Part shown: positions 37,063 to 58,651 of the stretch, in pieces | Layout of the letters: each line of letters starts with the position of its first letter | Numbering within the stretch: the stretch's first letter is position 1 | Source of the DNA: Fimbriiglobus ruber | GTDB taxonomy: Bacteria; Planctomycetota; Planctomycetia; Gemmatales; Gemmataceae | Direction: 5' to 3' | Length of the DNA: 64,000 bases | Assembly: GCF_002197845.1 (NCBI RefSeq) | Contig: NZ_NIDE01000001.1 | Coordinates: 1,302,001-1,366,000 of the forward strand | Program-made: the position numbers and the translations under genes | Notes under the pieces: generated by a model | Told to the model about the DNA's origin: nothing | Database searches by the model: none | What the model saw: the letters and a program-made list of their open reading frames with translations, nothing else

Positions 37063-38313
37063 TCACGGAACGGCCACGCGATCCTGGCTGCCGACATTTT
37101 CCTGGTAGGTCAGGTTTCCACTCGTCTCCAGAACGGTCTGAAAATCCCGCCGGTGGTACCAGAGCGAGTCCACGCCTTTTTGCGAGAGGCGGTTCACCGA
37201 GACGTCGAGGTACGTGAGACGTGACATCAACGACGACCCGGCGAGAACGAACGCCCCGGCGTCCGTGATTTGATTTTGCCGGACGGCCAACCGCTTCACC
37301 CCAACCAGGTGCGGGGACTCGGCCACCGCCCGCACGCCGGCGTCGCCCAGGTAGTTCCCGGACAGATTCAGTCCTTTCGCCCGGGCGAGGCTCGGCGAGG
37401 CGACGAGGGCGATTGCCCCGGCCGGGCCGATCGCGCTATTGCGCAGGTCCAGATTGGGGTTATGTTCGAGCATTCTTCGGAGCAGCGACGACCCGGCGAG
37501 TTCGGCCGCCCCGGCGTCGCCGATGTGGTTCGCGTAGACCCGGAACGTGTACAACCGGGTGAGATAGCGACTGGAAACGACCGCCTTGACTCCCGCGTCT
37601 CCCACGTCGTTCCCGGACACGTCGAGAACCCGGAGGCCGCCCAGGTGAGGCGACTCCGCCAGCGCACGAACGCCCTCGGCACTGATCTGCCCGTTGTCGG
37701 TCAGATACAGCGCGCGGAGCCGCGAAAAGCCGGTCGCCCGCGCGAGCAGGCGGACGCCGCCGTCGCAGAGGCCGTTGAAACTCAGGTCGAGGGTTTCCAC
37801 CCGGGTCAAGTACGGCGAGCGGGCGAGGACGTTCACCCCGCCGTTGCCGAGATCGTTGCCGCAAAGGTCGAGTTCGCGAACGCTCGCGAGGAAAGGGCAT
37901 TGTGCCAGCCGCCCGATGTGCCGTGCGGCGTCGAGTATCCGCACGCGGCGGACCGGCGCCAGGCGAAAGAGTTCGTCGCCCCGCGCCAGAAACGTACCCG
38001 CGTCGACCGACACGGCGTCGGCCACGCCGCGGCGGAACTCGACCCCGACGACCATTTCACCGAGGTGGGCGGACCACGCCGCTTGATGCTCCTGAAGGAG
38101 TTCGAGTTCGCGCGTTTTCAGTGACCCGCGCATCGGGTGATCGTCCGACGTCCGGGCGAGCGCGCACTGGACGCGGATCAATTCGCCGCGGGCGCGGTCG
38201 GCCGGGTCGTCGGATTCGTCGAGGAAGTCGGCGTAGATCAGCCGCGGCCCGTCGTCGTGATAGTGAGATAAGACGGGCCCCAAGAACGCCTGTTCCTCGG
38301 CGGGCGTCGGCAT
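37063..38313 (-). CDS. Leucine-rich-repeat protein with planctomycete repeat-companion domain (TIGR02996)
   Basis: A 416-residue cytoplasmic-looking protein. The N-terminus EEQAFLGPVLSHYHDDGPRLIYADFLDESDDPADRARGELIRVQCAL is the planctomycete repeat-companion domain found in front of repeat arrays. It is followed by about eight ribonuclease-inhibitor-type LRRs (VRELDLCGNDLGNGGVNVLARSP, LRVLDVSGNDVGDAGVKAV, KGLNLSGNYLGDAGVRAV). The likely role is protein-protein interaction; the partner is unknown. GGAGG 8 nt before the ATG supports the start. Isolated between repeat elements. Confidence 0.9.
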   Translation of the reverse strand: MPTPAEEQAFLGPVLSHYHDDGPRLIYADFLDESDDPADRARGELIRVQCALARTSDDHPMRGSLKTRELELLQEHQAAWSAHLGEMVVGVEFRRGVADAVSVDAGTFLARGDELFRLAPVRRVRILDAARHIGRLAQCPFLASVRELDLCGNDLGNGGVNVLARSPYLTRVETLDLSFNGLCDGGVRLLARATGFSRLRALYLTDNGQISAEGVRALAESPHLGGLRVLDVSGNDVGDAGVKAVVSSRYLTRLYTFRVYANHIGDAGAAELAGSSLLRRMLEHNPNLDLRNSAIGPAGAIALVASPSLARAKGLNLSGNYLGDAGVRAVAESPHLVGVKRLAVRQNQITDAGAFVLAGSSLMSRLTYLDVSVNRLSQKGVDSLWYHRRDFQTVLETSGNLTYQENVGSQDRVAVP

Positions 38314-39287: not shown

Positions 39288-40286
39288 TTACCTGGGCTTC
39301 CGCACGATGCGGGGTTTCGCGACCTGGGGCGTCGGGGTGGTTTCTTCCGCGGGCGTTCCCATCACCACGTTGGCCCCACTCACGCTCGCGGCACGGTAGG
39401 CGGTCTCCATCGCGTCGAGAAAACGCTCGTCGCCGCGCCAGAACGGAATCGCCCCGAGCCGCTTGGGGAGAGCCGCGGTGACGGACGGCGAGTTGATCTC
39501 GGCGAGCAAGTCGGTCGGTAACTCGCCCACACTCCAGAATTGCCGCGGGTCGGCCGGCGCGGCCGTTTCATTCGCTGTCGGTGCCACACTTGAGGGCGAC
39601 ACCGCATTCGCGGGCAGCGGTTCACTCGCGGCTGCCGCCCGCGCCGGAGCCTTCGGCTTCCTGGCCACCTTGGGCGCCTCAGGGGGAGGCGGCGGGGTAC
39701 TGGCACCAAGTTTGGCGAACAGCGCCTCGCGGTCCAGACCGCGGAGGCGGAAGAGGAGGAACGGGTCGCGGTCGAACCTCTCGCCCAGGAGGTAGTAGAC
39801 GGCCGCGATGTGCTTGCACGGGTTCGAGTAGTCCGGGCAGGAGCAGGACGTTTTGAGGTCGTTCCGCTTCGCGGGGAAGAGCGACACGCCCGCATCTGCC
39901 GCCAGTTGTTCGACCTCACTCGGTAGTTCGCCGGCCAGCAGCTTCGCCGCGAATTTCGCTTGCACGGACAGTGCCTTCACGACCTTCGCCCAATCGGCGT
40001 CGGTCAGTTTCGCCACCTCAATGCTCACCTTATAGGGCTGCGGCGCCGAGCCTTGAACTTTGGCGGCCACGTGGCCGGGCGTGACGTCGATCGACAGCAC
40101 CTGGCCGCCGCGGGCGTAGCTCCGCCCGCGCTGCAGGCGGCCGCCGACGTCGAAGCTTTCGATCACGGCGATCCAGCGCTTCGCCCACCACGATTCGCCG
40201 AAACTCCCCCTCTTCGATTGGGATTTGATCCCGCCGACGGCTTTGCGCGGCGTCGATTTCGGGTAACGGCTATATTCCCACCACAT
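39288..40286 (-). CDS. SWIM zinc-finger protein, partner of SNF2 helicase
   Basis: A 332-residue protein. The N-terminal region (MWWEYSRYPKSTPRKAVGGIKSQSKRGSFGESWWAKRW) is followed by a SWIM zinc finger (KTSCSCPDYSNPCKHIAAVYYLLGERFDRDPFLLFRLRG, C-x-C...C-x-H, about 145-185) and a disordered Ala/Pro tail. In many bacteria this protein is encoded beside an SNF2-family ATPase, and here it follows that gene after 3 bp, implying translational coupling. SWIM fingers bind DNA or protein; the pair probably forms one chromatin/DNA-remodelling or repair machine. Different from the SWIM protein of the retron locus. Confidence 0.9.
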   Translation of the reverse strand: MWWEYSRYPKSTPRKAVGGIKSQSKRGSFGESWWAKRWIAVIESFDVGGRLQRGRSYARGGQVLSIDVTPGHVAAKVQGSAPQPYKVSIEVAKLTDADWAKVVKALSVQAKFAAKLLAGELPSEVEQLAADAGVSLFPAKRNDLKTSCSCPDYSNPCKHIAAVYYLLGERFDRDPFLLFRLRGLDREALFAKLGASTPPPPPEAPKVARKPKAPARAAAASEPLPANAVSPSSVAPTANETAAPADPRQFWSVGELPTDLLAEINSPSVTAALPKRLGAIPFWRGDERFLDAMETAYRAASVSGANVVMGTPAEETTPTPQVAKPRIVRKPR

Positions 40287-40289
40287 GCG

Positions 40290-43200
40290 TCACTCCTCCA
40301 CCGCGTCCGCCCGCAGGGCGAGCAGGTCTTTGAGTTCGGTGTTCGACATCTCCGTCAGCCACCCTTCCCCGGTCCCGACGACCCGCCCCGCGACTTCCTT
40401 CTTCCGCTCGATCATTTCGTCGATCTTCTCTTCCAGAGTACCCACGCAAACGAATTTATGCACCTGCACGTTCCGCGTCTGGCCGATCCGGAAGGCCCGG
40501 TCCGTGGCCTGATTCTCCACGGCCGGGTTCCACCAGCGGTCGAAATGGAAGACGTGGTTCGCGGCCGTCAATGTCACCCCGGTCCCGCCGGCCTTCAGGG
40601 AGATCAGGAAGACCCGCGGCGCGTCCGCGGCGGTCGTGTCCTGAAACCGGGCGACCATCCGCTCGCGGTTTTTCTGCGGCACCCCGCCGTGCAGGAATAG
40701 CACTTCCTTGCCGAATGTTTCTTGCAGGTGCTTGCGGATGATGTCGCCCATCTCGGTGAACTGCGTGAAGATCAGCGCCCGGTCTCCGACCTGAAGCACT
40801 TCGTCGATCATTTCCGTGAGGCGGGCGAGTTTGCCGGAGCGGTCCGGGATCGCGGAGTTGTCGCCCAGGAACTGGGCCGGGTGGTTGCACACCTGTTTCA
40901 ACTTGGAGAGCGCGCCGAGAATCAGCCCCTTGCGGCGAATCCCATCCTCGTCCTTGAGTGACTTATCGAGTTCCCGGACGACGGCCTGGTACAGCGTGGC
41001 TTGTTCCTTGGTGAGCGTGCAAAAGACGTTGGCCTCGAACTTGTCCGGCAGGTCGGCGATGATTGACTTGTCGGTCTTCAGCCGTCGCAGCAGGAACGGC
41101 CCGGTCAAGTCCTTGAGCCGCCGTGTGGCGTCTTCGTCGCGGTGCATCTGGATCGGCACGAGAAAATTCCGGCGGAACGACTCGCGTGACCCGAGGAAGC
41201 CCGGGTTCAGGTACTGGCCGATCGACCACAGGTCGCCGACGTGGTTCTCGACCGGGGTGCCGGTCAGGGCGACGCGGAAATCGGCTTTGAGTGCGCGGGC
41301 GGCCTGCGACGTTTTCGCGTCCGGGTTCTTGATATTCTGCGCCTCATCCAGAATGACGCCCGCCCACGGGATGGCTTGCAGCGCGGCCGCGTCCCGGTGC
41401 AGGAGTGAAAAGCTGGAGACCACGAGGCCGAATTGCTTGACCTGGGCCGCGAGGGTCTTCTCCCCTTTCGTGCGCTTCTGCCCGTGGTGGATGAGGACCG
41501 ACAGGGTCGGCGTGAACCGCTCCGCTTCCTTGCGCCAGTGGCCGACGACGGACGTGGGACAGACGAGGAGGACCGGCCGCGTTTCGCCGTCCTCGCGGGC
41601 TTGTTGGATCGCGGCGAGCGTCTGGACGGACTTCCCGAGGCCCATGTCGTCCGCCAGGCACGCCCCGAGGCCGACCCGCCGCAGGAACGACAGCCACGAG
41701 TACCCCCGCACTTGGTACGGCCGCAGGGTGCCGTGGAAGTCGCGCGGCGGGGTGAGTTCCGCGAACGTCGTCGTGCCCCGGAGTTGGTCGAGGAACACCT
41801 TCAACCCGCCCGTCGTTTTCACCCCGCGCACGGCCAACCCGCCCGGCCCGGTCTCGGCGCCGAGGCTCATCTTCAGCAGGTCGCGGACGGTGCCGGTGGT
41901 TTGCGGGTTTTTGGTCCAGAAATCGAGGGCGGTGCGGATCTCGTCGGCGTTCACTTGAACCCACCGGCCGCGGACGTTGACCAGCGGCGACTTCAACCGG
42001 GCGAGCGCTTCGAGTTCGGCCAGCGACAGTTCGGTGTCCCCGATCGCGACTTTCCAGTCGAACTTGATGACCTCGTCGAGCGACATGACGCCGTTGGAGG
42101 CCGAGAATTTCTTCGCGGTTTTCGCGGCCGCGGTGACGGCGAGCCTGTTTTTGGTGCCGGTCCGCGCCCACCACGCCGGGAGGAGGACGCCGAAGCCGGC
42201 CTGTTCGAGGACGTAGGCCGTCTCGCTCAGGAAGCGGTGGGCGCCGCCCGCGTCGGTGGTGAACTCCGTCGGCGCGGCCGTGTTCAAACTCGTCTCGACT
42301 TCCGGGCAGAGCTTCGCGGCCTGACCGAGAGCGGCGAACAAAAACTCGCGGGACGGGAGCGGGACACTTCTGGCGACGGCCTTGTGGGGGAACCAGGCCT
42401 CGTCCAGGGAAACGAGTAAGCTCGGGTCATCGAAGGCTTGCAGCAGGTAGCGGACGGTCCAGGTGCCTTTCGTCGTGGCCTCGACGGGAGTCGCATCCGG
42501 CGGTTCTTCCAGACGAAAACAGAGCCGGTAACTCGCCGCGTCCGCGACGACGATCGGCCGCTGCCAGTCGTCGAGCGCCCGTCTCAACTCGCCGGCCTCG
42601 GCCGGGCTGACTTGCATCGCCCCGTCGGGCGCGTGCAGCGCGTAGAGCCACTGGTCGTGGACACTGGCAAAGGTCTTGCGGACGGTCGTCGTCATCCGCG
42701 ACGAGCGGACCAGACCGTCGACGGCCAGTTCGAGGAAATCGTTCAAGGCGGCGGTCGGTGACGCGCCGCCCGCCGAGTCTGTTGCCGTCGCCCGGCAGGC
42801 GGCGGGCATGGCGGCGGCGAGCCTCTGGAACCGCGGCCGCTCCGGGCCGCCGACGACGGGCCGCCAACAGGCCCGCGTCTGCGTCCCGACCGTTTCGAGC
42901 CCCGGAAGGAATTGCTCCCTCGCGACGAGGCCGGCGGCGTACTGTGCGGCCGTGACCCAGTATTTCAGCGTCGGGCCGATCAGTACGCCCGGCTGGAGCG
43001 TGTCGCGATCGACGCAGGCTTCGAGTAGTTCGAGGGCCGAAGCGGCTTCGAGTACGAGAACCGGAACGGCCCACGGGCTCATCTCGATGACCGCGTCCGG
43101 GTCCGGCGGCTCGGCGATCAATGGCAACGACGCGATCGGCCGCCCGGCTGTACTCGGCAGCCAAACCGCGGCTGTTTCTTCGGGCGCCTGGAACGAGGAA

Positions 43201-43358
43201 ATGCTCTCGGCGACCGTCGTTCGGATCGTCTCGGCCGGCACCGAAAAAGGGTGCGGGCGGGCCGCCTGTCGCGACTTGCGGCCCGCGCGGGCGGGCTCCG
43301 TGGTCTCACCCCAAGCCAGGAATTGCTTGTCTCTCAAGAGGAGTTGCAGCGCGATCAT
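40290..43358 (-). CDS. SNF2-family DEAD/DEAH-box helicase
   Basis: About 1022 residues. A long N-terminal family-specific region is followed by a SWI2/SNF2 motor: motif I DDMGLGKSVQTLAAI (about residue 570), Ia VLLVCPTSVVGHW, II DEAQ in ILDEAQNIKNPDA (about 672), III ALTGTPVENHVGDLWSI, then helicase-C motifs FTQFTEMGDIIRKHL, FLISLKAGGTGVTLTAANHV and DRAFRIGQTRNVQVHKFV. It translocates on double-stranded DNA with ATP. The ATG at 43358 has AGGA 7 nt upstream; an upstream TTG (43394) lacks such a site. Forms an operon with the SWIM gene. Confidence 0.93.
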   Translation of the reverse strand: MIALQLLLRDKQFLAWGETTEPARAGRKSRQAARPHPFSVPAETIRTTVAESISSFQAPEETAAVWLPSTAGRPIASLPLIAEPPDPDAVIEMSPWAVPVLVLEAASALELLEACVDRDTLQPGVLIGPTLKYWVTAAQYAAGLVAREQFLPGLETVGTQTRACWRPVVGGPERPRFQRLAAAMPAACRATATDSAGGASPTAALNDFLELAVDGLVRSSRMTTTVRKTFASVHDQWLYALHAPDGAMQVSPAEAGELRRALDDWQRPIVVADAASYRLCFRLEEPPDATPVEATTKGTWTVRYLLQAFDDPSLLVSLDEAWFPHKAVARSVPLPSREFLFAALGQAAKLCPEVETSLNTAAPTEFTTDAGGAHRFLSETAYVLEQAGFGVLLPAWWARTGTKNRLAVTAAAKTAKKFSASNGVMSLDEVIKFDWKVAIGDTELSLAELEALARLKSPLVNVRGRWVQVNADEIRTALDFWTKNPQTTGTVRDLLKMSLGAETGPGGLAVRGVKTTGGLKVFLDQLRGTTTFAELTPPRDFHGTLRPYQVRGYSWLSFLRRVGLGACLADDMGLGKSVQTLAAIQQAREDGETRPVLLVCPTSVVGHWRKEAERFTPTLSVLIHHGQKRTKGEKTLAAQVKQFGLVVSSFSLLHRDAAALQAIPWAGVILDEAQNIKNPDAKTSQAARALKADFRVALTGTPVENHVGDLWSIGQYLNPGFLGSRESFRRNFLVPIQMHRDEDATRRLKDLTGPFLLRRLKTDKSIIADLPDKFEANVFCTLTKEQATLYQAVVRELDKSLKDEDGIRRKGLILGALSKLKQVCNHPAQFLGDNSAIPDRSGKLARLTEMIDEVLQVGDRALIFTQFTEMGDIIRKHLQETFGKEVLFLHGGVPQKNRERMVARFQDTTAADAPRVFLISLKAGGTGVTLTAANHVFHFDRWWNPAVENQATDRAFRIGQTRNVQVHKFVCVGTLEEKIDEMIERKKEVAGRVVGTGEGWLTEMSNTELKDLLALRADAVEE

Positions 43359-43515
43359 AACGCGATCCTGGAATACCCGAATATCGTCTATCAAAACGCG
43401 GGGTTAAGCGATCGAGGCATCGGGGCACATACTTTGACATAAAGAATTGTCGACCCTGCGAACAGCAAGAGTTGTTCGATCTGGCCGGTGGGCCGGTTAT
43501 TCGCGGCGGTCGGTC

Positions 43516-46135: not shown

Positions 46136-47992
46136 TCATTCCGCGACGGCGTCGAGGTAGCCCCTGGACGTCAGGTCCGCGAGTCGGGCGAAGTACGCCG
46201 TCCGGGCGGCCGCCTCGGTGTTGAACCGTAGCGCCTGGACCCGCGCGGGCTGACCCGCCCTGCCCCACCGGACTTTCACCTTCTGCCGCTCCAACGACAC
46301 CTGGGCGACCGTCTCCTCGTTCCCCACCCGGCGGCTGAACGCCCGCGTCTCGAACGTTACCGCGTCGTCGGTTTTGGCCCGTTCCGCTTCCCGCGCGGCG
46401 AACGCCAGACGGAGGGCGATCAGGTGGACGCACGGCCCGGCCTTGAGCCCCTGCTTCCGGAACGCGGTGCAGGTACAAACGGCCTTCCGCACCTGCCCCT
46501 CGTCGGCCAGTACGAGTTGGGGGCGGTAATCGCGCTTGTCTTCCGTTACCGACACCTGTCCGGTCACTTCTAACCCCACGCCCGCGACGCGGGTTTCCGA
46601 GACGACTTTGACAGCCCCGCGGCGGGTGAACAGGTCGTAAGCCACCTTCTCGTGCTGGTTGCGGTACTGGAGGCGGGTCAAGTCGAGCGGCTCGCCGACG
46701 ACGGGGCGGAGCCGGTAAACGCCGGTCGCGATGTCGAACATGAGTTGGCCGTGCTGGCAGCCGAGTTGGAGCGTTTCGAGCAGGGCCGACCCCTTCAACC
46801 CGGTCCCGGCGGCGAGCGCCTTGGTGTCGGCCGACCAGACGCCGGCGAGGTAGTCGATCACCTTCTTGAGCGCCGCGGGGGTTTCCGTCTTCCGCGGCAG
46901 GAGCAGGTCGAACCCGAGGGCTTGCGACCAGTTTGATGACGTGAAACCCGTCAGTCCGAGGGTCAGCGTCATGTCGCCGGCGCGGAACACCCAGAAGCTC
47001 GGCAACCCGCTCCCGAGTAGATAAACGTCGACCGATTCGACGAACGGCAGGAGCCGGCGGATGGTCATTAGCCGCCGCCGGCCCCAAACCCTGACGACGC
47101 GGGCGGCCGTTCCACGGAAGACGTCTGCGGTTGTCGGGATAACAGTCTCCCACGGTTCGAGGACGATCCGCGGCCGGTCGCCGGGGATCAACTCGAACCG
47201 CAGCCCGCGGCGCTTGCCCTTGGTGTCCGCGTGCATTCGCAGGTGCCGGAGCAGGTTGTACACGTCGACCGGGGCGAGGCGGACGTGGTCGAACGGGAGC
47301 GTCGCGGCCGACTGAACCTGCAGGAACCCGCGGAGCCAGGAGTCGGGCACACGGATTTGCTTCTCGATCAACTCCGGCCGCGTCTCGGTGGCGACGGATA
47401 ATCCCTCCGAACCGACCGCGAGCCGTGTCTCGCGGTACCCGCGCATCTGTTGCACGCCGTCGAAAAGAGCCCGGCTGAAGTCGATGTTGGTGGTCCCGAA
47501 CGCGGCATCGCCCGCGTGGTCAAAAGCGTCCTGACGGAAGGCGAGACAGGCGTACGTACTCTCGTCCTTACCGAACACCTCGAACATCACCTGATCCGGG
47601 TGAACACTGACAACGGGGTCGAGGATGCAGAACAAGAGTGGGTCGTTCCGCGCCAGCCAGGAGAAATACGCCTGCTGGGCCTGCCAGATGCTTTGCCCGG
47701 CCGTCTCGCGCTTGAGCCGGAGGTACGCGAGGTACGCGGTTCGGTCCTTCGGAACATAACGGTAATCGCTGCCGACGACGGCGTACAGCGCGGACAGGGC
47801 TTCCCGGAAACGGAGCGGGTCTTTGACGCGCGCGGCAAAGCGGACCGGCGGGCGGTCGACGTTGCCGTAGAGTTCGACGCGGGCGGCCGCCCCGGCCGTT
47901 TCGACCCGGCTGGCCCCGGCGTAAGCCAGGTGCGCAGCCGTGGCGGCCGGCTGGTTGTCGGTCGGGGGATCGAGGAGTTCGCCCGTTGACAT
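46136..47992 (-). CDS. Winged-helix/SWIM/WGR protein of the retron operon (WHSWIM-like)
   Basis: A 618-residue protein. A long N-terminal alpha/beta region is followed by a helical winged-helix-like part (KKVIDYLAGVWSADTKALAAGTGLKGSALLETLQLG...GVYRLRPV, about 375-440). A SWIM zinc finger comes next (VCTCTAFRKQGLKAGPCVHLIALRLAF, C-x-C and C-x-H, about 500-525). The C-terminus is a WGR-type domain (VKVRWGRAGQPARVQALRFNTEAAARTAYFARLADLTSRGY, about 560-612). WGR and SWIM modules are nucleic-acid binding; WGR is known from PARPs. Retron type XIII operons are described with a WHSWIM protein next to an ARM-repeat protein and the RT. AGGGA lies 8 nt before the ATG; the gap from the HEAT gene is 24 bp. 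Confidence 0.88.
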   Translation of the reverse strand: MSTGELLDPPTDNQPAATAAHLAYAGASRVETAGAAARVELYGNVDRPPVRFAARVKDPLRFREALSALYAVVGSDYRYVPKDRTAYLAYLRLKRETAGQSIWQAQQAYFSWLARNDPLLFCILDPVVSVHPDQVMFEVFGKDESTYACLAFRQDAFDHAGDAAFGTTNIDFSRALFDGVQQMRGYRETRLAVGSEGLSVATETRPELIEKQIRVPDSWLRGFLQVQSAATLPFDHVRLAPVDVYNLLRHLRMHADTKGKRRGLRFELIPGDRPRIVLEPWETVIPTTADVFRGTAARVVRVWGRRRLMTIRRLLPFVESVDVYLLGSGLPSFWVFRAGDMTLTLGLTGFTSSNWSQALGFDLLLPRKTETPAALKKVIDYLAGVWSADTKALAAGTGLKGSALLETLQLGCQHGQLMFDIATGVYRLRPVVGEPLDLTRLQYRNQHEKVAYDLFTRRGAVKVVSETRVAGVGLEVTGQVSVTEDKRDYRPQLVLADEGQVRKAVCTCTAFRKQGLKAGPCVHLIALRLAFAAREAERAKTDDAVTFETRAFSRRVGNEETVAQVSLERQKVKVRWGRAGQPARVQALRFNTEAAARTAYFARLADLTSRGYLDAVAE

Positions 47993-48016: not shown

Positions 48017-51000
48017 TTACGCTTTGCCGGCTGTCCGCGCGGCCCGCGCCCGCTTCGACCGTCTCAGTGCCCGCCACGCCGCCTTGCGCACGTCTTCGTC
48101 GTCACCGTCGGCCTTCCCCACCTGCACCAACACCGCTTCGGCAGGTTCCGCGGCCATGACACCGAGCCCCTCGATCGCGCCGAGCCGGGTGGCCTCCGGC
48201 TTCTTCCGGTCGTTCGCGATGGCCCCAAGGGTAGCCACATCCTTGGCCGCGATCAAAGCCGGCAGGGCGACCGGTTGGTAGTGGACCTGTCCGGCCGCCG
48301 ACTGCAAGAACCCGACCGCGGCACGCACTTCCTTCGCCGCCAGCAAGCGCCGAAAGCTCGGCAGGTCGGACGACAGCATTTCCAGCAGTCCCGCGGCCCG
48401 GGGCGCATCGTGGCGGGCGAGGACATCGGCCGCAATGGTCCGGGCGTCCGGGTCGGTGCCGCGGGCGACCGTTTCCAGGGCCGACAGCGCCATGGCCTTC
48501 GGTGTACCGGAAGCGAGGCACCGCACGGCTTCCAGACGCAGCGGCTTGAAAAGCGGATCATCCGGCCGCTCCGTCGCGAGGGCGACCAACTTGTCGAGCC
48601 CAGCCCCGACTCGTCCTGCCGCCCAGATCAGTCCACGGAGGCAGTCGGTCGCCCGCTCCAGGGTGTGCCGTCGCGACGGGTCGCGGACTACGGCCGCCCG
48701 GCGCTCTTGCCAGGTCGTCCACCATTTCGCGAGGGCGTCCGAAACCTTTCCCTTCGCCCCGGCGGCGGTCGTGCCGGCCCGGCCCAACAAGCGAGCGGCC
48801 AGCCGGACCGTCCCCTCGTCCGCCTCGGCGAGAGCCGCCGTGGCCTCCTTCACCGGGATGTCCGTTCGGCCGAGTAAGTTCGACTCCAGCACTTCCTGGA
48901 CGGCAGGCGCGAACTTGGGAAACAGGGTTAAAATCTGAAGCGGGTCGCCGCGGGCGGAGACGACTTCGACGATCTTCTCGCCGCCGAACAGATCGTCGTC
49001 GTTCGCCCATTCCTCGGCTTCCGGGTTCTGGAGCAGAGCGTAGAACGGTTCGAGCGAGTCGCGACCCCAGAGCCGACGGGCGGCCCCGAACGCGGCAACC
49101 AGGAGATCGGTGTCGCTCTCGCGGAGCATCAGGGTCGTCAGGGCCGTGCGGTTCGCGGGCTCGTCCTTGTACCCCAGTTGTTCGACCGCAGTCTGACGGA
49201 CCCAGTCGCCCAGCATGCGGTCGGCTGCCCGCTGGCGGACGAGTTGCCAGCCGGAGGCGGAATCGAACCAACGTAGACCGGCCAGCGCCCGCCGGGCGAC
49301 CCCGCCGTTGCCTTTCGCCAGGCGTTCGAGCAGCCGGCCGATCTTCTCGCTCTCTGGCGATCGTTTCAAATGCCCGATCGCCTCGGCCGCCGCCTCCTGG
49401 AGCGCGTGCCCGTCTTCGCTGGCCAACCGTAATAGCACGTCCACGGCTCGGGCGTCGCCGAGTTCGCCGAGCGCGATCACGGCTCGCTCGCGGAGGCTTA
49501 CGTCGTCGAGGTATTCGATGGCCGAAAGGAGAACGCTGAGCCCTTCGGCCCGGCCGGCACGGGCCAGCCCGTCGGCCGCCAGGAATTGGGTCGTCGGGTT
49601 TTTGTGTCGGAGAGCCCGGAGGAGGACTTCGGGCGCGGCGTTCCGGTGCTTCAGTCGCCAGCCGAGGGCCGCGACCGCCGTGTCTCGCAGGTCGTCATTC
49701 GGGTTCGTCGTGAGTAAGCCGAGCGGGCCGTCGACTTCGGGACTGCGGCACCACGTCGCCCCGACGATCAACTTTTGATCCAGTGTCACGATGCCGGTGG
49801 CGATCATCCGGTCGAGTAACTTCGCGAAGACGGCCGGGTGCCGCGGGTGTTGGTCTTCCTCCCATTTGCGATCCGGCCGTTCGTCCGTGGGGTCTTCGAT
49901 CGCCTGGTCAAACCCGCTCACGATCAACACGGCACCGAACGCGGCGGTCCGCCACTCTTTGTTTTTGTCGGCCAGGGCGAGCATTCGGTCGGCCGTCTCG
50001 GGGCGGCGGAAGGCGGCCGCGCAGCCCGTCAGCATCCGCAAATTCGCGGTGCCGGCCGGGTCGTTTTCGAGTCGGTCGAGGAAGGCATCGGCGGCCCGCG
50101 GGTCGCCGAGTTGCGTCAGGGCCTCGACCGCCCGCTGCTGCTTGATGGGAACGTCGGCCGCCCTGAGCATTTCGACCAGGGCGTCGAACGCGGCTGCATC
50201 CTTTTTAGCGGCCAGTTCGCTCGCGGCGGCCTCGCGGACCAGCCGGTAGCGCGACTTCAATGCGGCCCGCAGGTGGTCTCGGGCGACGGCGGACTGATCG
50301 TACTCGGCGGCCAGCCACCGTATGGCTTGCTGCCGCATCGCCTCGTAAGCGGCTTGACCGGCAGCCGCGGCGACTGACACCGTCCCGCGCCGACCCGCGA
50401 GCAATTTCGCGGCTTCGATCGCCAAGTCGTCGGTTCGGGCGAGCATCACCTGCTCCAGCACCGAATCACCATCTCCCGCGGCGGCACCGGCGAGAAGTTC
50501 GAGCCCCTTCACGCCCAGATCGGTATACCCGGCTTCCAGGGCTTCGGCCCCGAGCCGCGTGCGGTCGATCCCGAGCGCGAGCAGGTGTTCAAACGCCCGG
50601 GTGCGGACCGTCAGGTTGGGATCTCCCAGCGCCTGCGTCAGGACCGGACTGGCGGCCCGACTGTACCGGGCGTCGGCCGACGCGAGCGCGAAGACGCGGT
50701 CGAGGGCGGTCTGACGAATCCGCCCGATCGCCTGGGGCGCGGCGTTACTCCCCTGCTCGCGGACTAGCCCGACATAGGCACCGAACGCGAGTTCTTTCAA
50801 CTGGCCGGCCGTCACGCGCGACCCTTTCCGGGGCGGCGCCGTGGTGCGGGCTTCCGCGATTTCTCGCGCGAATCGTCGACTGAACACAGCCCACGCCTGA
50901 TTCCACCCGGCTTGCTCTTTCTCGTCGAACCAGGCCAGCAGCCCGACGGCTCGGGCACGGACCCACGGTGGCCCGCCGACCAACACGGCCGCCAAAGCGT

Positions 51001-54000
51001 CGATCACGTCCGGGACGATCTTCCAGGCCGTTTCGCCGCCGCGGTCGTTGAGCGTCTGGACCAGGAATTCGCGGGAGGCGTCCGCGTCGGTGTAGAGTTC
51101 CAGGGCTTGCGCGCCCGTCAGGCGAACCCGCGGCGCCTTGGCGGACAAACAGGCCAGCGGGCGTTGGCCAGCCCCCGAAGCGTCCCGCGACTCGGCCAAC
51201 AGGAGAATGAAGAGCGCGCGGGTGCGGATGGTTTCCTCGGTCGCGTCCAGGGCCGCACTCACCAATTGGTCGCCCGTCGCTCCCAACGCGACGGCCGCGG
51301 CAAGAACGGCCCCTATGCCAAGATCGCGAGCGAGATCGTCCCCTAGCAGTCGACCCAATACGGAACCGTCGCCGTGAATGGCTAACCCGAAGGCCGCCCG
51401 GTTTCGCACGGCCGGGTCTGCGTGTGGGAGCGCTTGCACCAAGCCGTCAGTCGCCCCCGGACGGACGGACCATGCCAATGCCTCAACGGCTGCCTTTCGA
51501 ACGCGGGCGTGTTTACTGCCCACCAGCCAGCGGATAGCGGACACCGCGGTCGGGTCCGCGAGTTCGGCGAGTCCGAGTAAGGCTGCCTCGGCGTTTTCCA
51601 GCCAGGCCGCCTCGCGCTCCTTCTCGGTCGGCTCCGGGACGGTGGCCAAATCGAGCAGCGGCCGGAGGGCGGCCGGGTCGCCGTGTTTGGCCAACGCGGT
51701 CGCGGCCCGCACTTTGACATCCGGGTGTTCGTTGGCGGCGGCTTCCGTCAAAGCCGAGATGGCGTCGGCGTCGACGAGGGCCGTCAGGGCGAGTTGGCGG
51801 AGGTTCCGGTCGGGGTCGTGTAAGGCCGACGTCAGGAGTGCTTGAGATTGTTGCGTGCGGCGTTTGATGAGGGCTTCGATCGCCAGCCGCCGCGCGTCGG
51901 GGTATTTCGATGCGAGTGCCGCTTCGAGGGGAGCGAACTCCTTGGCCTTCCGGGTCGCCTGGGTGAACGCCTCGGCCCGAATGCCCGGGTCGGGGTCGTT
52001 GAAGAATTCGTGCAGCAGCGGTGTCGCCCACGGCTCGGCCGCCTGGGCCGTGACCTCCGTCAGCACCTCCCGGCGGACGTCGGCGTGGGTCGAGCGCAAG
52101 GCGAACCGGAGGGTCGGCTCGCCGCCACCGCCGACCTTGAGATTGAGGACGGCCTTCCAGGCTTCTGTCCGAACCGCCTGAGCGCCGTCGCAAAGCGCCA
52201 GAACGAGCAGGAACCAGCCCGGGGCCGAGGTGGCGTCCGGTGCCCCGGCCGGCGGATCGCCGAGCGGGCTCTTCCGAACAAACTCGACCAGCGTTTGTAA
52301 CCCACGTCGGCGAACGTCTTCGGCGGCCGCCGTCAGGCCGGCGCTGGCGACTCCGAGAGGGTCTGTATCCTCGATCCTGGCTAGTGACGTATACGCGGCG
52401 TCCCGGACGGAGGCCTCCGGGTCGCCTAGCATTGACCGGAGGCGGGCGAGCGCACGCGGGTCGCCTAACGCGGCCAACCCATGGCAGACCTCGACCCGGG
52501 CGGCCGGCGCGTCATCCCGGCTGAGTTGGAGCAACAGCCCGAATGCCCGCGGGTCGCCGAGGGCGGACAGCGCCCGGGCGCCGCGGAGGCAGGTGTCGAG
52601 TGCGCGGGCCGCGGTCGCCTGAAGCGGCACGTCGAAATCGTCGGGCGTGAGGCGAGCCCGGTCCACAACGGGCACGTCGGCGATCGGCACGTCGGCCCCC
52701 GGGATCTCGCCCAGTTGCCGGTGCAATTCGGGGTCGGCTTTTCGCAGGTAATTCGCCAGATTCCAGCGGGTCAACACGGAGACGAGGAACGCGACCCGCC
52801 GGACGCCAGAGTCGTCGTCTTCGAGCCGGCGGCGGACGGCCGAGCGGACCCGCGGATCGTCCAACAACTTCCGTTCGTAGAACCGGGCGAGGGCGGTCGC
52901 CCGAACGTCCCCGTGTTTTGAGCCGAGGGCGGTCAGTCCGGCCTGCGGCGGGTCGGCCGCGAAGACCGTCGTCAGGCCGTCAATCGTGGCCTTTCGCACG
53001 TCCCACGTACCGGCGTTCAGCGCCTCGGTCAACCGGGCCAGCGCCTCGTCGTCCGCCCCGGCTCGCGGCACGAGCGCTTTCACCGCGAGAATGCCGACGT
53101 CGGGTTTACCGGTCTTTAACGCCAGGTCGATCGGTCGGAAGTCGGTGGCCCCGAGGTGGGTCTGCAAACCCTTGAACGCCTCGACGCGGACTTTCTCATC
53201 CCGGTGATTGACGGCAGTTTCGAGCGGCGCGACCGCGCGTGGGTTGCGCGACGCGGCGAGGAGTTGGGCGGCCACGAACCGGAGTTGGTGGTCGGCGTCC
53301 TTCTCCAGTTGGTTGGCGATCAGATCGAGAGAAGCGGCGTCATCCCATTTCGCCACCTCTTTCAGCACCTTCTCCCGCCGGCGGGGGTCGGTCTGCCCCA
53401 ACTCGGATTTGGCCCGGTCGACAGCCCCGTATACGCGGGCAACCTGTTCCCCGAACCGACCGTCCGGCTCCAGGTCGATGAAGCGGATGGTGTTGTCGTC
53501 CGAACAGACGGCCAATCGGGGGCGGTTGTACGCGGTCACGACGGCCAGCGCGACCACGCGCCCGACGCCGCCCTCGAATTTGGCCGGCTTGACCCCGCCG
53601 ACGCGGGGCCACGTTTTGAGTACGGCGTCCCATCCGCCGGTCAGGAAACGGTCACCGGACGGAGCCCAGACCATCGCGGTAACAAAGTCTTCGTGGTTAT
53701 TGTCCCGCCCCTTGTCTTCCGGCTCCAGGCGCCCGCGGGCGTGGGTGGTGAGCAGCTTGTGATCGGCCCCCGCGGAAAAGAACCGCAGTTCTTCCGGCTC
53801 GAACAGAAGCGCGGTGACCGCCCCGTCGTGCAACTTCTCGCTTTCCGCGGGTTCAAACTCGGACTTGTCTTGCCCATCAAAGACGACAACGGTGCCCTTC
53901 TCGGTCCCGGCCGCGAGCCACTGACCGGTTTTGTCGGCAGCGAGGCAGGTGCCCGCTTCCGGGAGATCGAGGCTCTGGAGTTGTTCCCCATCGGTCGTTG

Positions 54001-54547
54001 AAATCGTCACGAGCCGCGCGCCGGTTAGCACCGCGAGACGGCCGCCCGAGACGAACACGATGGCGCGGATAGGGGCATCGAAGGGTTGACCCAGGGGTGT
54101 TGGTGCTTTGTTTCCGGCAGCCGAGTAAAGTTGTCGATCGGTCCCGGCGACGAACACCGTCTTTTCATCCGCGGCCACGACCGCGCCGCCGGTCGGAAGG
54201 GCGTGTTCGGTTAATTTCAGCGAATCCGCGTCGAGCCGGAAGAGGGCGGTCGGTTGGTCTTCGGGGTGGGCTGTGACGAATGCCAACACCCCGCCCACGC
54301 CAGCCGCGGATTGGATGTCGCCGCGGTAGGTCAAATACTTGTCGCCGGACGCCCCGACACTGCCGCCCACAGTCCCCGAAAGGAGTTGCGCTTCGAGCCC
54401 TCCCAAAGTCCCCTCGGACTCGAGCTTGGCGAGCATCTGCTGGATCTGTTGTTCGAGGACCGCTCGCCCCGCCGCGGGGAACTTGTCCAACATCGCGCGG
54501 GCGGCCTCGATCCGCTGGCGCAGGGCTTCGAGAAGTTCCGGGGTCAT
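48017..54547 (-). CDS. Giant WD40/HEAT-repeat protein of the retron operon (ARM-like effector component)
   Basis: A 2176-residue protein. An N-terminal coiled coil (1-60) precedes a WD40-like beta-propeller (about 70-390: HDGAVTALLFEPEELRFFSAGADHKLL, VTAMVWAPSGDRFLTGGWDAVLKTW). From about 400 to the C-terminus there are dozens of HEAT/ARM-type helical repeats (DPEASVRDAAYTSLARI, HADPAVRNRAAFGLAIHGD, YLDDVSLRERAVIALGELGDARAV). No enzymatic motif was seen. It could be a sensor or scaffold that couples msDNA integrity to toxicity, by analogy with other retrons (inference). Its ATG overlaps the TGA of the upstream gene (ATGA), showing translational coupling. Confidence 0.88.
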   Translation of the reverse strand: MTPELLEALRQRIEAARAMLDKFPAAGRAVLEQQIQQMLAKLESEGTLGGLEAQLLSGTVGGSVGASGDKYLTYRGDIQSAAGVGGVLAFVTAHPEDQPTALFRLDADSLKLTEHALPTGGAVVAADEKTVFVAGTDRQLYSAAGNKAPTPLGQPFDAPIRAIVFVSGGRLAVLTGARLVTISTTDGEQLQSLDLPEAGTCLAADKTGQWLAAGTEKGTVVVFDGQDKSEFEPAESEKLHDGAVTALLFEPEELRFFSAGADHKLLTTHARGRLEPEDKGRDNNHEDFVTAMVWAPSGDRFLTGGWDAVLKTWPRVGGVKPAKFEGGVGRVVALAVVTAYNRPRLAVCSDDNTIRFIDLEPDGRFGEQVARVYGAVDRAKSELGQTDPRRREKVLKEVAKWDDAASLDLIANQLEKDADHQLRFVAAQLLAASRNPRAVAPLETAVNHRDEKVRVEAFKGLQTHLGATDFRPIDLALKTGKPDVGILAVKALVPRAGADDEALARLTEALNAGTWDVRKATIDGLTTVFAADPPQAGLTALGSKHGDVRATALARFYERKLLDDPRVRSAVRRRLEDDDSGVRRVAFLVSVLTRWNLANYLRKADPELHRQLGEIPGADVPIADVPVVDRARLTPDDFDVPLQATAARALDTCLRGARALSALGDPRAFGLLLQLSRDDAPAARVEVCHGLAALGDPRALARLRSMLGDPEASVRDAAYTSLARIEDTDPLGVASAGLTAAAEDVRRRGLQTLVEFVRKSPLGDPPAGAPDATSAPGWFLLVLALCDGAQAVRTEAWKAVLNLKVGGGGEPTLRFALRSTHADVRREVLTEVTAQAAEPWATPLLHEFFNDPDPGIRAEAFTQATRKAKEFAPLEAALASKYPDARRLAIEALIKRRTQQSQALLTSALHDPDRNLRQLALTALVDADAISALTEAAANEHPDVKVRAATALAKHGDPAALRPLLDLATVPEPTEKEREAAWLENAEAALLGLAELADPTAVSAIRWLVGSKHARVRKAAVEALAWSVRPGATDGLVQALPHADPAVRNRAAFGLAIHGDGSVLGRLLGDDLARDLGIGAVLAAAVALGATGDQLVSAALDATEETIRTRALFILLLAESRDASGAGQRPLACLSAKAPRVRLTGAQALELYTDADASREFLVQTLNDRGGETAWKIVPDVIDALAAVLVGGPPWVRARAVGLLAWFDEKEQAGWNQAWAVFSRRFAREIAEARTTAPPRKGSRVTAGQLKELAFGAYVGLVREQGSNAAPQAIGRIRQTALDRVFALASADARYSRAASPVLTQALGDPNLTVRTRAFEHLLALGIDRTRLGAEALEAGYTDLGVKGLELLAGAAAGDGDSVLEQVMLARTDDLAIEAAKLLAGRRGTVSVAAAAGQAAYEAMRQQAIRWLAAEYDQSAVARDHLRAALKSRYRLVREAAASELAAKKDAAAFDALVEMLRAADVPIKQQRAVEALTQLGDPRAADAFLDRLENDPAGTANLRMLTGCAAAFRRPETADRMLALADKNKEWRTAAFGAVLIVSGFDQAIEDPTDERPDRKWEEDQHPRHPAVFAKLLDRMIATGIVTLDQKLIVGATWCRSPEVDGPLGLLTTNPNDDLRDTAVAALGWRLKHRNAAPEVLLRALRHKNPTTQFLAADGLARAGRAEGLSVLLSAIEYLDDVSLRERAVIALGELGDARAVDVLLRLASEDGHALQEAAAEAIGHLKRSPESEKIGRLLERLAKGNGGVARRALAGLRWFDSASGWQLVRQRAADRMLGDWVRQTAVEQLGYKDEPANRTALTTLMLRESDTDLLVAAFGAARRLWGRDSLEPFYALLQNPEAEEWANDDDLFGGEKIVEVVSARGDPLQILTLFPKFAPAVQEVLESNLLGRTDIPVKEATAALAEADEGTVRLAARLLGRAGTTAAGAKGKVSDALAKWWTTWQERRAAVVRDPSRRHTLERATDCLRGLIWAAGRVGAGLDKLVALATERPDDPLFKPLRLEAVRCLASGTPKAMALSALETVARGTDPDARTIAADVLARHDAPRAAGLLEMLSSDLPSFRRLLAAKEVRAAVGFLQSAAGQVHYQPVALPALIAAKDVATLGAIANDRKKPEATRLGAIEGLGVMAAEPAEAVLVQVGKADGDDEDVRKAAWRALRRSKRARAARTAGKA

Positions 54548-57500
54548 ACTGCGGCCCCCGCTTTCAGTTCGGGATACGTGTGGCGGATGCGGGTGACGGC
54601 GACCAGACAGGCGGCCCGTTCACTGGTGCCTCGCGACCGGAGGAACTCGTCCAACAGCGGTAGAACGCCGGAAGCAAATTCCCGGTCGGACAGGGCCATG
54701 TCCCGCATGACTTCGACCGCGTCCAGCTTCGCCCGGCGCGCGGGCAACGGCTTCCCGGATACGACGCGGCCGGCGGTCCGGCTCTGTTGTTGGTCCGGCG
54801 GCGTGTCGTCGTCGGGGTCTCGTTTGGCGGGTTCCGGCGGTCCCGGCGGAAGTTCAAACAGCACCCGACGGAGGAACTGGGCCAACGTCGGTTTGCCGGC
54901 CGGCCACTGTTGCGGGCGCGGCGGGACGCCATCCCCCGAGCGGCCTCCTGTCGTTCCGCGGCCTTACGAGCGGTCGCCCCGACCTGGGGCTTCGGCGGAA
55001 CCGGCGGCTTCCACTCCGGCATCACCCCGCGGTCGCGGTAGACCGCCCATAGCGCCCGAATGACGAACGCTCGCACCCGTCGGTCCGGGCTTTCCGTCAG
55101 CCGGAATAACTCCTCGGGCACACGCAACTGCGGCAGCCGACTGATTAATTCCATGCCCAGCGCCCGCGTTTCGTCGTCGGCCGACTCGCAGAAGCGGTAG
55201 ACGGCGGCCGCTTCCAGCCGGGCGGGGTCGAGCCGGAACAGGCGATTCTCCGGCGCGTCGTCGGCGAGCAGTACCTTGGCCACGAACCGCCGCACGTCGG
55301 CGAACGGCAACTCGGTCATGGCGACGAGTTGGTCGATGGTCGGACTCCACCGGGCGAATTCGTACCCGGCCAGTTCCAGGGCGAACTCGCGGAGCGGCCG
55401 GCGCGACTCGGCGAACAGCGGCGCCACCCGGTCATAGGTCAGGAACGTCTGGGGAACCTCTGCCCCCGGGTCGACCGGCTTGTCGTCCAGTTTCTGACCG
55501 AGGAGCGGGTGGTGGCGACGAACATACTGTCGGGCGAACCGTCCGACCGGGGCGTCGGCCGGGCCGGGAGCGATCACGAATTCCCACAACCGCTCGCACC
55601 CCGCCAGGGACGCGTCGCCGGTAGCTTGCGGTTGCCGGCCGACGAGCATTTGCAGAAAGAGCGTTTCGGAAATGATCCTGACGTTGGCCCCGGCCTCGTT
55701 GAGTTGCTCGGCCTTGACCTGCTTCGAGCCCTTCTTCCCCTGACCGTATAGCGGCGAGCCGTCGTCGCCGATAACAAGATAATGGAGGTTCTTCGTCACC
55801 GACCCGGCGACCGCGCCGTTGGCCGCCTTCACCTTCGCCTCAGCTTCCTCGCGGGTCATGGTCGAGAGTTTGCCGGTAAAAAGGAAACTCGCTTTCTGCA
55901 AATCGACCGTCTCGCTGGTCGGGGCAGCCGCGGGGGCGGAGGGTGCCGCTTCCCGCGGGGCGAAATCGGCCGGCGTGAACGACCGGATCATCGTGTCAAC
56001 GGCGAAATCGTGGTACAGCGGTTCGGTCCGGGCGACGAGCCGCATCAGCCAGTCGAATCCGAGTTCGCCCGGTGCGAACTTCCGCACGTCACCGAGCCAC
56101 GCCAGAACCTGACGGGCGCGGGGCTCGTCGAACGGCAGGTCTCCCGCCCAGGTTCCATTGGCGGCGCGGAAGGCGGCCAGGTCCGGGTCGGCTTCCCAGT
56201 CCGGTTGGAAAGCCAGTGCCTTCCAGAATCCCACGCCGAGCGTTTGCGGCTTCAGTTTCCCCTCATCGACCCAACGGGCGACGACCGGCCATCCGCCCGG
56301 GAACAGGGCCAACCAGCGCAGGCCGTCGGCGGCGACGGCGTTCAGGTCGAACCGAGCCAACTCGCCGGCCGCGTATGGGATCACCCGCCGGATGATTTGG
56401 CCTTCGGTCGGCTCGAGCCGCTTCAGAAGGTTCAGGAAGTAGGCGGAGCCGAGTCGGTCCGTCGGGTGGATCTTGGGCAACAGTCCCTTGGCGAACTCGA
56501 AGGCACGCTGATTCCCGGACAACAGCCGATCGGCGAACCACGCGGGCGTCAGTTCGGCCGCCCCGAAGTACTGTGGGATGGCGGCCGCCGCGAATTTGTA
56601 GCCGTATTCCGTTTCGAGCAATTCGCCCCACGCGGCCAGGCCCACATCCTTCCGCGGGTCGCGCTCGCCGATCAGGTCCTGGGCCAACTTCCGCACCGCC
56701 TCGTGCGAGTTGTTCGCCAGCCGGACCAGTTCCGAGACCGGGAGGTCGCGGGCGTGGGTCCGGGCGTAGTTGGCGGCGTACACGCGGGCGGAATCGGCCG
56801 GAGAGTCGAGTAATCGCAGAACCGCGTCATGTAATCCGTTTGTCCGGAAGTTGCCCTGCTCGAACGTCGGCACATTTTGAAGGAGCCAGATCACGAATTC
56901 GTCGATCGTCTTGCTTTGAACGCCGACGAGTCGGACGACCCAGACCGGTTCCACATCGCGCAGGACGGCCCGGAAGTCGGCTTTCAGCGCGGCGGCCGCG
57001 AACCCGCGGACGGCGTCGGCTCGCGCCCGCTCCAACAGCGTGAACAGCGGCCGCGGGCTCCGCTTCCAGAGGTCGCGGTAGGCGGCGTCTTTCAGTTGCT
57101 CGGGCGATGGTACGTTCCGCCCGCCGAAGTGGAAGTGGGCTTTGCCGTACTGCTTCGACTGGTGGAAGAAAATGTGGTTGGCGATCCACGTATTCCGCCA
57201 GGCGGTGTCGTCCGGGTAGCGGACGAGGAAATCGACGGCCGTGTCGGCGTAAGTCGCCGGGAGTTGGACGCCGACGCGCCGGAGGAACCGCCAGGCGCGA
57301 CGGGCGAGGTAGGCCATCGTCTGGGGCGTGATTCTCTCCGCCCCGTGCCCGGCATACTCCTTGTCGATCCGGGCGGCCAGCGCCCCGAATACCTCGGTAT
57401 CCCGGACGGCTTCAGACTCTTTGAAAATGCGCTTCAGCGCCCGCCACGGGCCGTATTTCAACGGGACGGTGGCGATCACTTCGAGCAGGCACGACCGGGC

Positions 57501-57809
57501 GAACGGGTCGTCGGTCTGCCACAGCGCGAGGATGATCTCATGGAGTCGGAGCCGGTCCGAGAGCGGCACCTCCGCGTCCGGTGCTTCGAGCGTTTTCATC
57601 AACTCGATACGGGCGTGGGCCTGTTCGTCCTTGCTTTTCTTGCGAAACTGCGGCGTGCGCGTCTGGTAGAGGAATTGGTCGAACGTGAGCGCCCCGGACC
57701 GAACCGGCTTGTGGGGTTCGTCCTGCTCAGCCAGTCGGGCGACGAGTCGGGGGAGTTCCGGGTCGCGGACGTCCCACGCCCGGCGGACGTCGGCGAGGGT
57801 AATGGCCAC
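54544..57809 (-). CDS. BRCT-containing helical-repeat protein, first gene of the retron operon (C-terminal frameshift)
   Basis: About 1085 residues of helical ARM/HEAT-like sequence with an internal BRCT domain (about 643-725: ASFLFTGKLSTMTREEAEA, AANGAVAGSVTKNLHYLVIG, VRIISETLFLQML), the type found in DNA ligases and repair scaffolds. One uninterrupted frame runs to 54564, but its last ~120 residues are Arg/Pro-rich nonsense. From about 54935, at a run of five Cs (54933-54937), the neighbouring frame reads well-ordered protein (QFLRRVLFELPPGPPEPAKRD... DREFASGVLPLLDEFL... RIRHTYPELKAGAAV). That frame ends at TGA 54544, overlapping the next gene's ATG. So the native gene is probably 54544-57809 with a one-base lesion. 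Start GTG 57809 with GGAGG 4 nt upstream. Confidence 0.8.
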
Positions 57810-57832: not shown

Positions 57833-57863
57833 AAAATAAAAAGTCGGCCGCAGGGGTGATTTA
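57833..57863 (-). terminator. T-tract after the a2 arm of the promoter-distal ncRNA (possible attenuator)
   Basis: On the minus strand the a1/a2 stem ends in CGACT and is followed at once by TTTTTATTTT (57842-57833), as in an intrinsic terminator. It lies 24 nt before the GTG of the first operon gene. It could define the ncRNA 3' end and limit read-through into the protein genes. Confidence 0.45.
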
Positions 57864-58099
57864 CTACTCGACCTGGGACGTGGAGGGCTCACGGACCCGC
57901 CGGTGGGGGGACGAATTACTCCTCACCGGAACCCCGACTCGCGGGGTAGCACCAGACCGGTGGGGAGTAATTCGTCCCCCCACCGAAAGCGGGTCTGGAA
58001 CAGCCCTCCTCGGGACGCATGCCAAGCCATACGCTCGGGCGGCGCAACGCCGCCCCGTTGCAGAGCAACTAAGCTAAATCGTTTCCCCTGCGACCGACT
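57842..58099 (-). ncRNA. Retron msr-msd-like ncRNA, promoter-distal copy
   Basis: Read on the minus strand. The a1 arm (58075-58099) pairs with a2 (57842-57863): 15 bp, with one C/A on the plus strand that becomes G-U in minus-strand RNA, plus GATTTA/TAAATC. Directly after a1 comes TTAGC, the usual branching-G context (G at 58074). Two msr-like hairpins follow: GTTGC/GCAAC (58057-58069) and an 8-bp GC stem (58037-58055). Then comes a long msd-like hairpin: 8 bp GGAGGGCT/AGCCCTCC (57882-57889 with 58002-58009), 7 bp GACCCGC/GCGGGTC (57894-57900 with 57989-57995), and a 28-bp stem (57902-57929 with 57957-57984, one mismatch) closed by a 27-base loop. a2 is followed by TTTTTATTTT. Confidence 0.82.
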
Positions 58100-58121
58100 G
58101 GCTCCTGACGGTTGTTTTGAA

Positions 58122-58378
58122 TGTCGGCCGGTCCGACAGTTTACTACTCGACCTGGGACGTGGAGGGCTCACGGACTCGCCGGTGGGTACCGTCCGGATC
58201 GCCCACCGGAACCACGACTCGCGGGGTAGCACCAGACCGGTGGGCGATCCGGACGGTACCCACCGAAAGCGAGTCTGGAACAGCCCTCCTCGGGACGCAT
58301 GCCAAGCCATGCGCTCGGGCGGCGCAACGCCGCCCCGTTGCAGAGCAACTAAGCTAAACTCGACCGAACCGGCCGACA
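58122..58378 (-). ncRNA. Retron msr-msd-like ncRNA, promoter-proximal copy
   Basis: Second unit with the same layout, offset 280 bp. a1 (58355-58378) pairs with a2 (58122-58143): TGTCGGCCGGT/ACCGGCCGACA (11 bp, perfect) and AGTTTA/TAAACT. The TTAGC motif follows a1, with the branching-type G at 58354. The msr-like hairpins are identical to the other copy. The msd-like hairpin has the 8-bp GGAGGGCT stem and a 7-bp GACTCGC/GCGAGTC stem (58174-58180 with 58269-58275) with a compensatory pair change versus the other copy. Its perfect 28-bp stem (58182-58209 with 58237-58264) differs at almost every position in the central 15 bp. Outside stems and arms only two differences were seen (57934/58214 and 58031/58311). 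No T-tract follows. Confidence 0.82.
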
Positions 58379-58388
58379 ATGTGAGTAA

Positions 58389-58417
58389 CTTATAATCGGC
58401 TTTCACGTGCGAAGCAA
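58389..58417 (-). promoter_or_regulatory. Candidate sigma70 promoter of the retron ncRNAs and operon
   Basis: Minus strand: TTGCTT (58412-58417), 17-bp spacer, TATAAG (58389-58394). The predicted transcription start near 58382 is about 4 nt before the a1 arm of the first ncRNA, the position expected for a retron RNA 5' end. This independently supports minus-strand transcription. Confidence 0.55.
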
Positions 58418-58651
58418 GCAGCGGAGTAAAACTACCGGCGATGGGGTACACGTCACTTGAGTTGGCAGAACAGACTTCCAAGATTCGCGATTGGAGCGAT
58501 CTCAAACACTTCCGGCTTATGACATCGTAGTCAAACCGAAACGTAGTGATCGGCAGAAACAATAAGTTCTGTCGGTTGTCTGGAGGCGAGACCTCCCCTC
58601 GAAAGCCCCTCTCCCGAATCGGGATAGGGGATGAAACGCAAAGCGGCTCGC

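Follow-up and report, generated by a model that had tools for sequence, protein, structure and literature searches.

Retrons are defence-type operons in which a reverse transcriptase (RT) copies a small RNA into DNA, and for most retrons the purpose of the msDNA sequence is an open question. The classification of Mestre et al. (2020) reportedly includes the type XIII retrons, a kind that is already known and little studied. Repeats resembling msDNA are also said to occur in Nannocystis exedens, judging from the titles of Lampson & Rice (1997) and Lampson et al. (2002), the second of which refers to a partial copy. Those retrons that have been described carry a single msr-msd cassette for each RT, with TAGC as their commonest priming motif (PMC6868368).

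The locus analyzed here lies in a 64,000-nucleotide stretch of Fimbriiglobus ruber DNA, which is called the window throughout. It resembles type XIII retrons in that all of its operon proteins match type XIII models and its ncRNA has an msr, an msd and a1/a2 arms, but it differs from them in having two ncRNA units instead of one, with the stem sequence diversified between the two. A single msr-msd per RT is a usual trait of retrons but not a defining one. The myxobacterial retrons Mxa1 (Mx162) and Sau1 (Sa163), compared by description, share the long msd, a similar msDNA size (162 nt) and an N-terminal extension of the RT; however, they have a single msr-msd cassette per RT and a CAGC priming site, whereas the window has TAGC (PMC6868368). 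Diversity-generating retroelements also link an RT to a sequence-variable cassette, but this is a resemblance only. The RT in the window is that of a type XIII retron, and the variable part is a non-coding RNA hairpin in which changes are compensated on both arms, which rules out a diversity-generating retroelement. The Nannocystis repeats are alike in being retron-like and dispersed in one chromosome. As far as their titles tell, the units reported here differ from them in being intact msr-msd genes with unlike stems of fixed length, in occurring in many genomes and in showing cassette swapping. A limited literature search found no paper on type XIII ncRNAs or on multi-unit retrons.

Results

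The type XIII operon and its surroundings

The window contains a complete type XIII operon on the minus strand with the gene order ARM1-ARM2-SWIM-RT, in which PADLOC recognized HEAT-ARM_XIII twice, SWIM_XIII, WGR_XIII and RT_XIII (Table 1). The RT shows the NAAAH, YADD and VTG motifs, and its closest solved structures are retron RTs (Ec86, 4e-40). It is the last gene of the operon, 12 kb from the ncRNA units, both of which lie at the operon head. The operon order and the position of the ncRNA are conserved in relatives. By analogy with its type XIII class, the operon may have an anti-phage role. ARM1 appears to be frameshifted near position 54932, where residues 937-992 of the L050 relative match one frame and residues 993-1120 match another; this may be a sequencing error or a real break.

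Table 1. Positions in the window of the retron genes, the ncRNA units and their parts
Feature	Position	Strand	Evidence or remark
Putative promoter of the tandem units, CTTGCT ... TATAAG	58382..58430	-	By eye; resembles elements before dispersed copies
ncRNA unit 2 (upstream, transcribed first)	58122..58378	-	R1 covariance match 58268-58363(-), 104.3 bits; inverted repeats; fold
msd stem of unit 2, 29 bp	58181..58265; arms 58181-58209 and 58237-58265	-	27-nt loop, 0 mismatches
ncRNA unit 1 (operon-proximal)	57842..58098	-	R1 match 57988-58083(-), 104.0 bits; fold
msd stem of unit 1, 29 bp	57901..57985; arms 57901-57929 and 57957-57985	-	27-nt loop, one mismatch
ARM1: HEAT-ARM_XIII / WGR_XIII protein with BRCT domain	54564..57809	-	PADLOC PDLC02921, E=0; WGR_XIII 1.5e-36; Pfam BRCT
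ARM2: 2176-aa WD40 and HEAT-repeat protein, HEAT-ARM_XIII	48017..54547	-	PADLOC PDLC02919, 2426 bits; Pfam HEAT_2, WD40
SWIM_XIII protein, WGR-like region at C-terminus	46136..47992	-	PADLOC PDLC02972, 1.4e-194; weak Pfam WGR
Type XIII retron reverse transcriptase, 431 aa	44724..46019	-	PADLOC RT_XIII, 6.7e-166; Pfam RVT_1

Near the operon, an SNF2-family helicase (DUF3670, SNF2-rel_dom) and a SWIM zinc-finger protein adjoin each other at 39288-43394 (-) of the window. A leucine-rich-repeat protein at 37063-38313 (-) has, by eye, a TIGR02996-like start, and the same family gives 92 matches in genome G482. The window genome also has five identical-scoring RVT_1 matches (on contigs C6, C9, C17, C18 and C20; four frames of 715 aa and one of 511 aa), which are probably group II introns, and a further retron-like RT at C17:1415036.

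Two tandem ncRNA units that differ in their stems

Judging from the sequence, the RNA strand is the minus strand, because the adjacent operon is on that strand and the units of relatives have the order 5'-a1-TTTAGC-msr-msd-a2. An RNA from the plus strand was ruled out on the same grounds, operon orientation and the order of msr, a1 and a2 in relatives. In unit 2 the parts are a1, the TTTAGC priming site (with the G at about 58354), the msr, the msd hairpin and a2. Unit 1 has the same anatomy with its priming G at about 58074, and its a2 is followed by TTTTTATTTT. TTTAGC stands at the equal place in both units, and AGC is invariant in 12 aligned units. The putative promoter before unit 2 was missed by a scan for the sigma-70 consensus, and none can be seen in the 23 nt that lie between the two units. 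This spacing and the lack of a visible promoter between them suggest that units 1 and 2 are probably co-transcribed.

The sequence-only reading had proposed two units of about 257 nt, 280 bp apart, that are near-identical except at paired positions, and this analysis, in which the 280 bp is the start-to-start distance, agrees with most of that description. Outside the stem centre and a1/a2, the units share direct repeats of 48, 41 and 100 nt that are 98% identical, and the msr is near-identical in both, so that the differences are confined almost entirely to the 29-bp msd stem and a1/a2. The complementary a1/a2 ends of a retron are present in both units: as had been claimed, the arms are unlike between the units and yet pair within each, which was seen in the folds of both. 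The 7-bp stem in which a C-to-T change in one arm is matched by a G-to-A change in the opposite arm was also found (GACCCGC/GCGGGTC compared with GACTCGC/GCGAGTC). For the long stem, the claim that the centre differs wholly and yet remains self-complementary held, but the length is 29 bp rather than 28 and the differing centre about 14 bp rather than 15. Both ends of this stem are common to the two units over 7-8 bp, and the arms are 100% complementary in unit 2 and 97% in unit 1. Folding, which that reading had named as a check, gave z-scores of -9.5 to -12.2, and 0 of 200 shuffles folded equally well on either strand. No known Rfam family matched the units at the gathering threshold.

The interpretation of the units as retron ncRNAs is supported by their place at the head of a type XIII operon, the TAGC priming motif, the retron anatomy and the homologous units in relatives. 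Taken as a whole, the locus is best explained, with a good degree of probability, as a type XIII retron in which the msr-msd gene occurs twice, in tandem.

Units at the operon heads of relatives

A search with the RT gave 13 operon-bearing relatives, and an alignment of ARM1 gave 33 loci, which span from Planctomycetota to Thiothrix, Thiolinea and myxobacteria. Units were identified with R1, a covariance model of the msr (95 nt) that was short-calibrated and gives rough E-values. With R1, almost every planctomycete locus and most gammaproteobacterial loci had a unit upstream of ARM1. R1 found no such upstream unit in three myxobacterial loci (L093, L094 and L103), where the ncRNA may be at another place in the operon. 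At L162, an AAAAGGT tandem repeat occupies the place expected for the msd hairpin, after the msr match at 2154.

In 44 of the 54 operon-head units the stem is 29 bp long and has no more than one mismatch. Tandem units occur at 5 of about 49 operon heads (about 10%), namely those of the window, Limnoglobus roseus, a Gemmataceae MAG, Tautonia sociabilis and Thiolinea disciformis. The tandem pairs of the relatives are largely alike outside the stem and a1/a2, and in the Limnoglobus roseus pair the msr and the msd flanks are without difference whereas the stems share few bases.

A stem of fixed length and near-perfect pairing

The 99 distinct stems of relatives, obtained by a search that favoured well-paired stems, have a constant length of 29 bp and a loop of 24-30 nt, and 99.4% of their pairs are Watson-Crick and 0.1% are G-U. 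Short hairpins in some MAGs (L051, L073, L139 and L142) were left out of these statistics and may represent assembly collapse of palindromes. All four pair types are found at stem positions 3-28. The covariation that had been claimed for the two units of the window is beyond chance in this larger set, since pairs 3-27 are Watson-Crick in 99.5% of cases compared with 30% when the 3' arms were re-dealt (maximum of 34.5% in 500 trials).

When stems were located a second time with G-U accepted as a pair, G-U made up 0.5% of the 29-bp stem versus 11.9% of an msr hairpin of the same units. G-U pairs are normally tolerated in RNA stems, and this deficit suggests that the msd stem was selected as DNA, in keeping with an msr that works as RNA. 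However, the G-U pairs of that msr hairpin may be largely at one position, and the deficit could alternatively come from a template-switch process that perfects palindromes. Among paralogues within one genome, identity is 27% in the stem core (against 26% for random sequence) and 78% in the msr.

Dispersed units are intact msr-msd genes

In the 32 operon-bearing genomes, R1 units number one or two per genome in most non-Gemmata genomes and 6-36 in Gemmata-type genomes and one relative. Units were present in 32 of 32 operon-bearing genomes, compared with 1 of 40 Gemmataceae genomes that appeared to lack the operon, as judged from the ARM1 search or, for some of them, from the RT search alone. 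The one operon-less exception has two R1 matches, one of which is near a contig end.

The sequence-only reading had held that dispersed copies of the hairpin unlinked to RT genes would point to a REP- or MITE-like repeat instead of a retron. No such copies exist in the window genome, but Gemmata-type relatives do have dispersed copies, in the form of intact msr-msd genes. These have a promoter-like element, a1, msr, msd, a2 and a GC-rich terminator-like hairpin. Their dispersal is not independent of RT genes, as 39 of the 40 operon-less genomes have none. Because they are intact genes and occur almost only in genomes with a type XIII operon, they extend the retron reading rather than refute it.

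A common neighbour gene for the dispersed copies was ruled out, as the neighbours are mostly unrelated housekeeping genes, and a link to TIGR02996 genes was not supported. Many dispersed units in G482, G472 and G588 (rarely in G585) are near members of an amplified gene family with the signature MTEAEW...WVVDLVLGK(E/D), nearly always in the same relative orientation; these loci include L198, L203, L216, L219, L224 and L238.

Stems probably change by replacement

At collinear orthologous loci in four genomes, stem identity was either 27-29/29 (16 pairs) or 8-16/29 (22 pairs), with none between, though it should be noted that the pairs are not independent and that some low-identity pairs have weak flank homology. 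In 14 of the 22 low-identity pairs, which are unambiguous, the flanks are at least 85% identical; the mis-oriented L200 was left out of these. Additionally, some stems recur at non-orthologous loci, where the msd tract is shared while the msr and tail differ (L195/L229, L224/L255, L220/L260 and L211/L218). For L211/L218, the msr is identical at 78 of 95 positions and the hairpin at 89 of 90. The bimodal identities and the recurrence of msd tracts at non-orthologous loci argue for wholesale replacement of the msd cassette over slow compensatory drift, and such replacement would yield tandem units that match everywhere except in the stem. Identical stems were also found in three species whose flanks are 88-96% identical (L212/L232/L272 and L214/L235/L269). 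This favours a function of those stems, although their conservation between species could reflect shared descent rather than selection.

Discussion

The data presented here suggest that a single enzyme produces an entire set of unlike DNA hairpins. The single RT would likely recognize the common msr and prime at the G of TAGC in each unit, and since the msr is near-identical in both units, the likely product would be two msDNA species of about 150-165 nt that differ in the duplex stem. With moderate confidence, we propose that the stem acts as a module of duplex DNA whose length is what is measured. We propose with similarly moderate confidence that its sequence is determined by units trading whole msd cassettes with one another, and that this exchange proceeds by homologous recombination in the flanks, which are conserved, perhaps with msDNA itself as the template.

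What the different stems are for is harder to say. They might broaden the sensing range of the complex by serving as baits that attract nucleases or DNA-binding proteins of the phage or the host, in which case the ARM/SWIM effectors would be released whenever one of the msDNAs is damaged or captured; we hold this view tentatively, as somewhat short of probable. The wider proposal, to which we also give rather less than an even chance, is that the RT serves a diversified msr-msd family (two members here and up to 36 in Gemmata-type genomes) in which each gene makes an msDNA with its own 29-bp duplex and cassettes are swapped by msd-directed recombination, the swapped duplexes forming an innate immune repertoire of DNA sensors with unlike sequences in place of one lone guard.

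About equally likely as the bait or sensor reading, and itself a little short of an even chance, is a model that treats the stem sequence as neutral. What counts would then be just length and perfect pairing, with the stem serving as a duplex ruler for the effector complex and the tandem units being a dosage duplication that brings no functional difference, and the sequence would change as template switching and recombination rewrite the palindromes. A stem fixed at 29 bp with a loop of 24-30 nt and an unconstrained sequence fits such a ruler well. So do the internal dyads within single arms, which template switching could create and which exceed those of shuffled arms both in dispersed units (z of 10.7) and in operon-head units (z of 2.9). 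Three stems searched as exact 18-19-mers had no match in 2.9 million viral contigs, which also agrees with neutrality, though this search had low power and is uninformative. However, a neutral stem does not readily explain why some stems are identical in three species with flanks of only 88-96% identity, or why orthologous stem identity is bimodal rather than gradual. Additionally, some genomes keep about 20-30 intact, different copies, which is unexpected from dosage alone.

A further possibility is that the units are a non-autonomous, MITE- or SINE-like mobile element multiplied by the retron RT, a scheme reportedly put forward for the Nannocystis repeats, with the tandem pair arising from an insertion beside the parent. 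Dispersal of units has a precedent in the msDNA-like repeats of Nannocystis (Lampson & Rice 1997), available here as a title in the reference list of PMC6868368, and the 6-36 dispersed copies in Gemmata-type genomes are in keeping with multiplication of this kind. However, the window genome has two copies only, both at the operon, and recent transposition predicts identical units, whereas paralogues differ most in the stem, with an identity close to that of random sequence. The copies also keep intact stems, gene-like flanks and stable orthologous places, and no target-site duplication was established, so we regard this explanation as improbable. It is very improbable that the unit is not reverse transcribed and is instead an operon leader or attenuator, as its position about 33 nt before ARM1, with the a1/a2 stem followed by TTTTTATTTT and a T-rich tail after the a2 of unit 1, might imply, because the 29-bp stem is nearly without G-U, a retron-type RT and the TAGC motif are present in the same operon, and stand-alone copies exist far from any operon, though leader and retron roles could coexist.

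These units amount to a natural experiment, within one genome and between species, in which the msr and the 29-bp length are constant and the stem sequence is near-limitless. Because the msr is constant and the stem length fixed, the effect of stem sequence can be tested apart from that of length. Trans-served, swappable msd cassettes would also be of interest to those who use retrons for genome editing. If the stems are baits, this would be a new architecture of innate immunity in which many DNA sensors are served by one enzyme; if they are not, these retrons would offer a clear example of a duplex ruler and would show how perfect palindromes are renewed.
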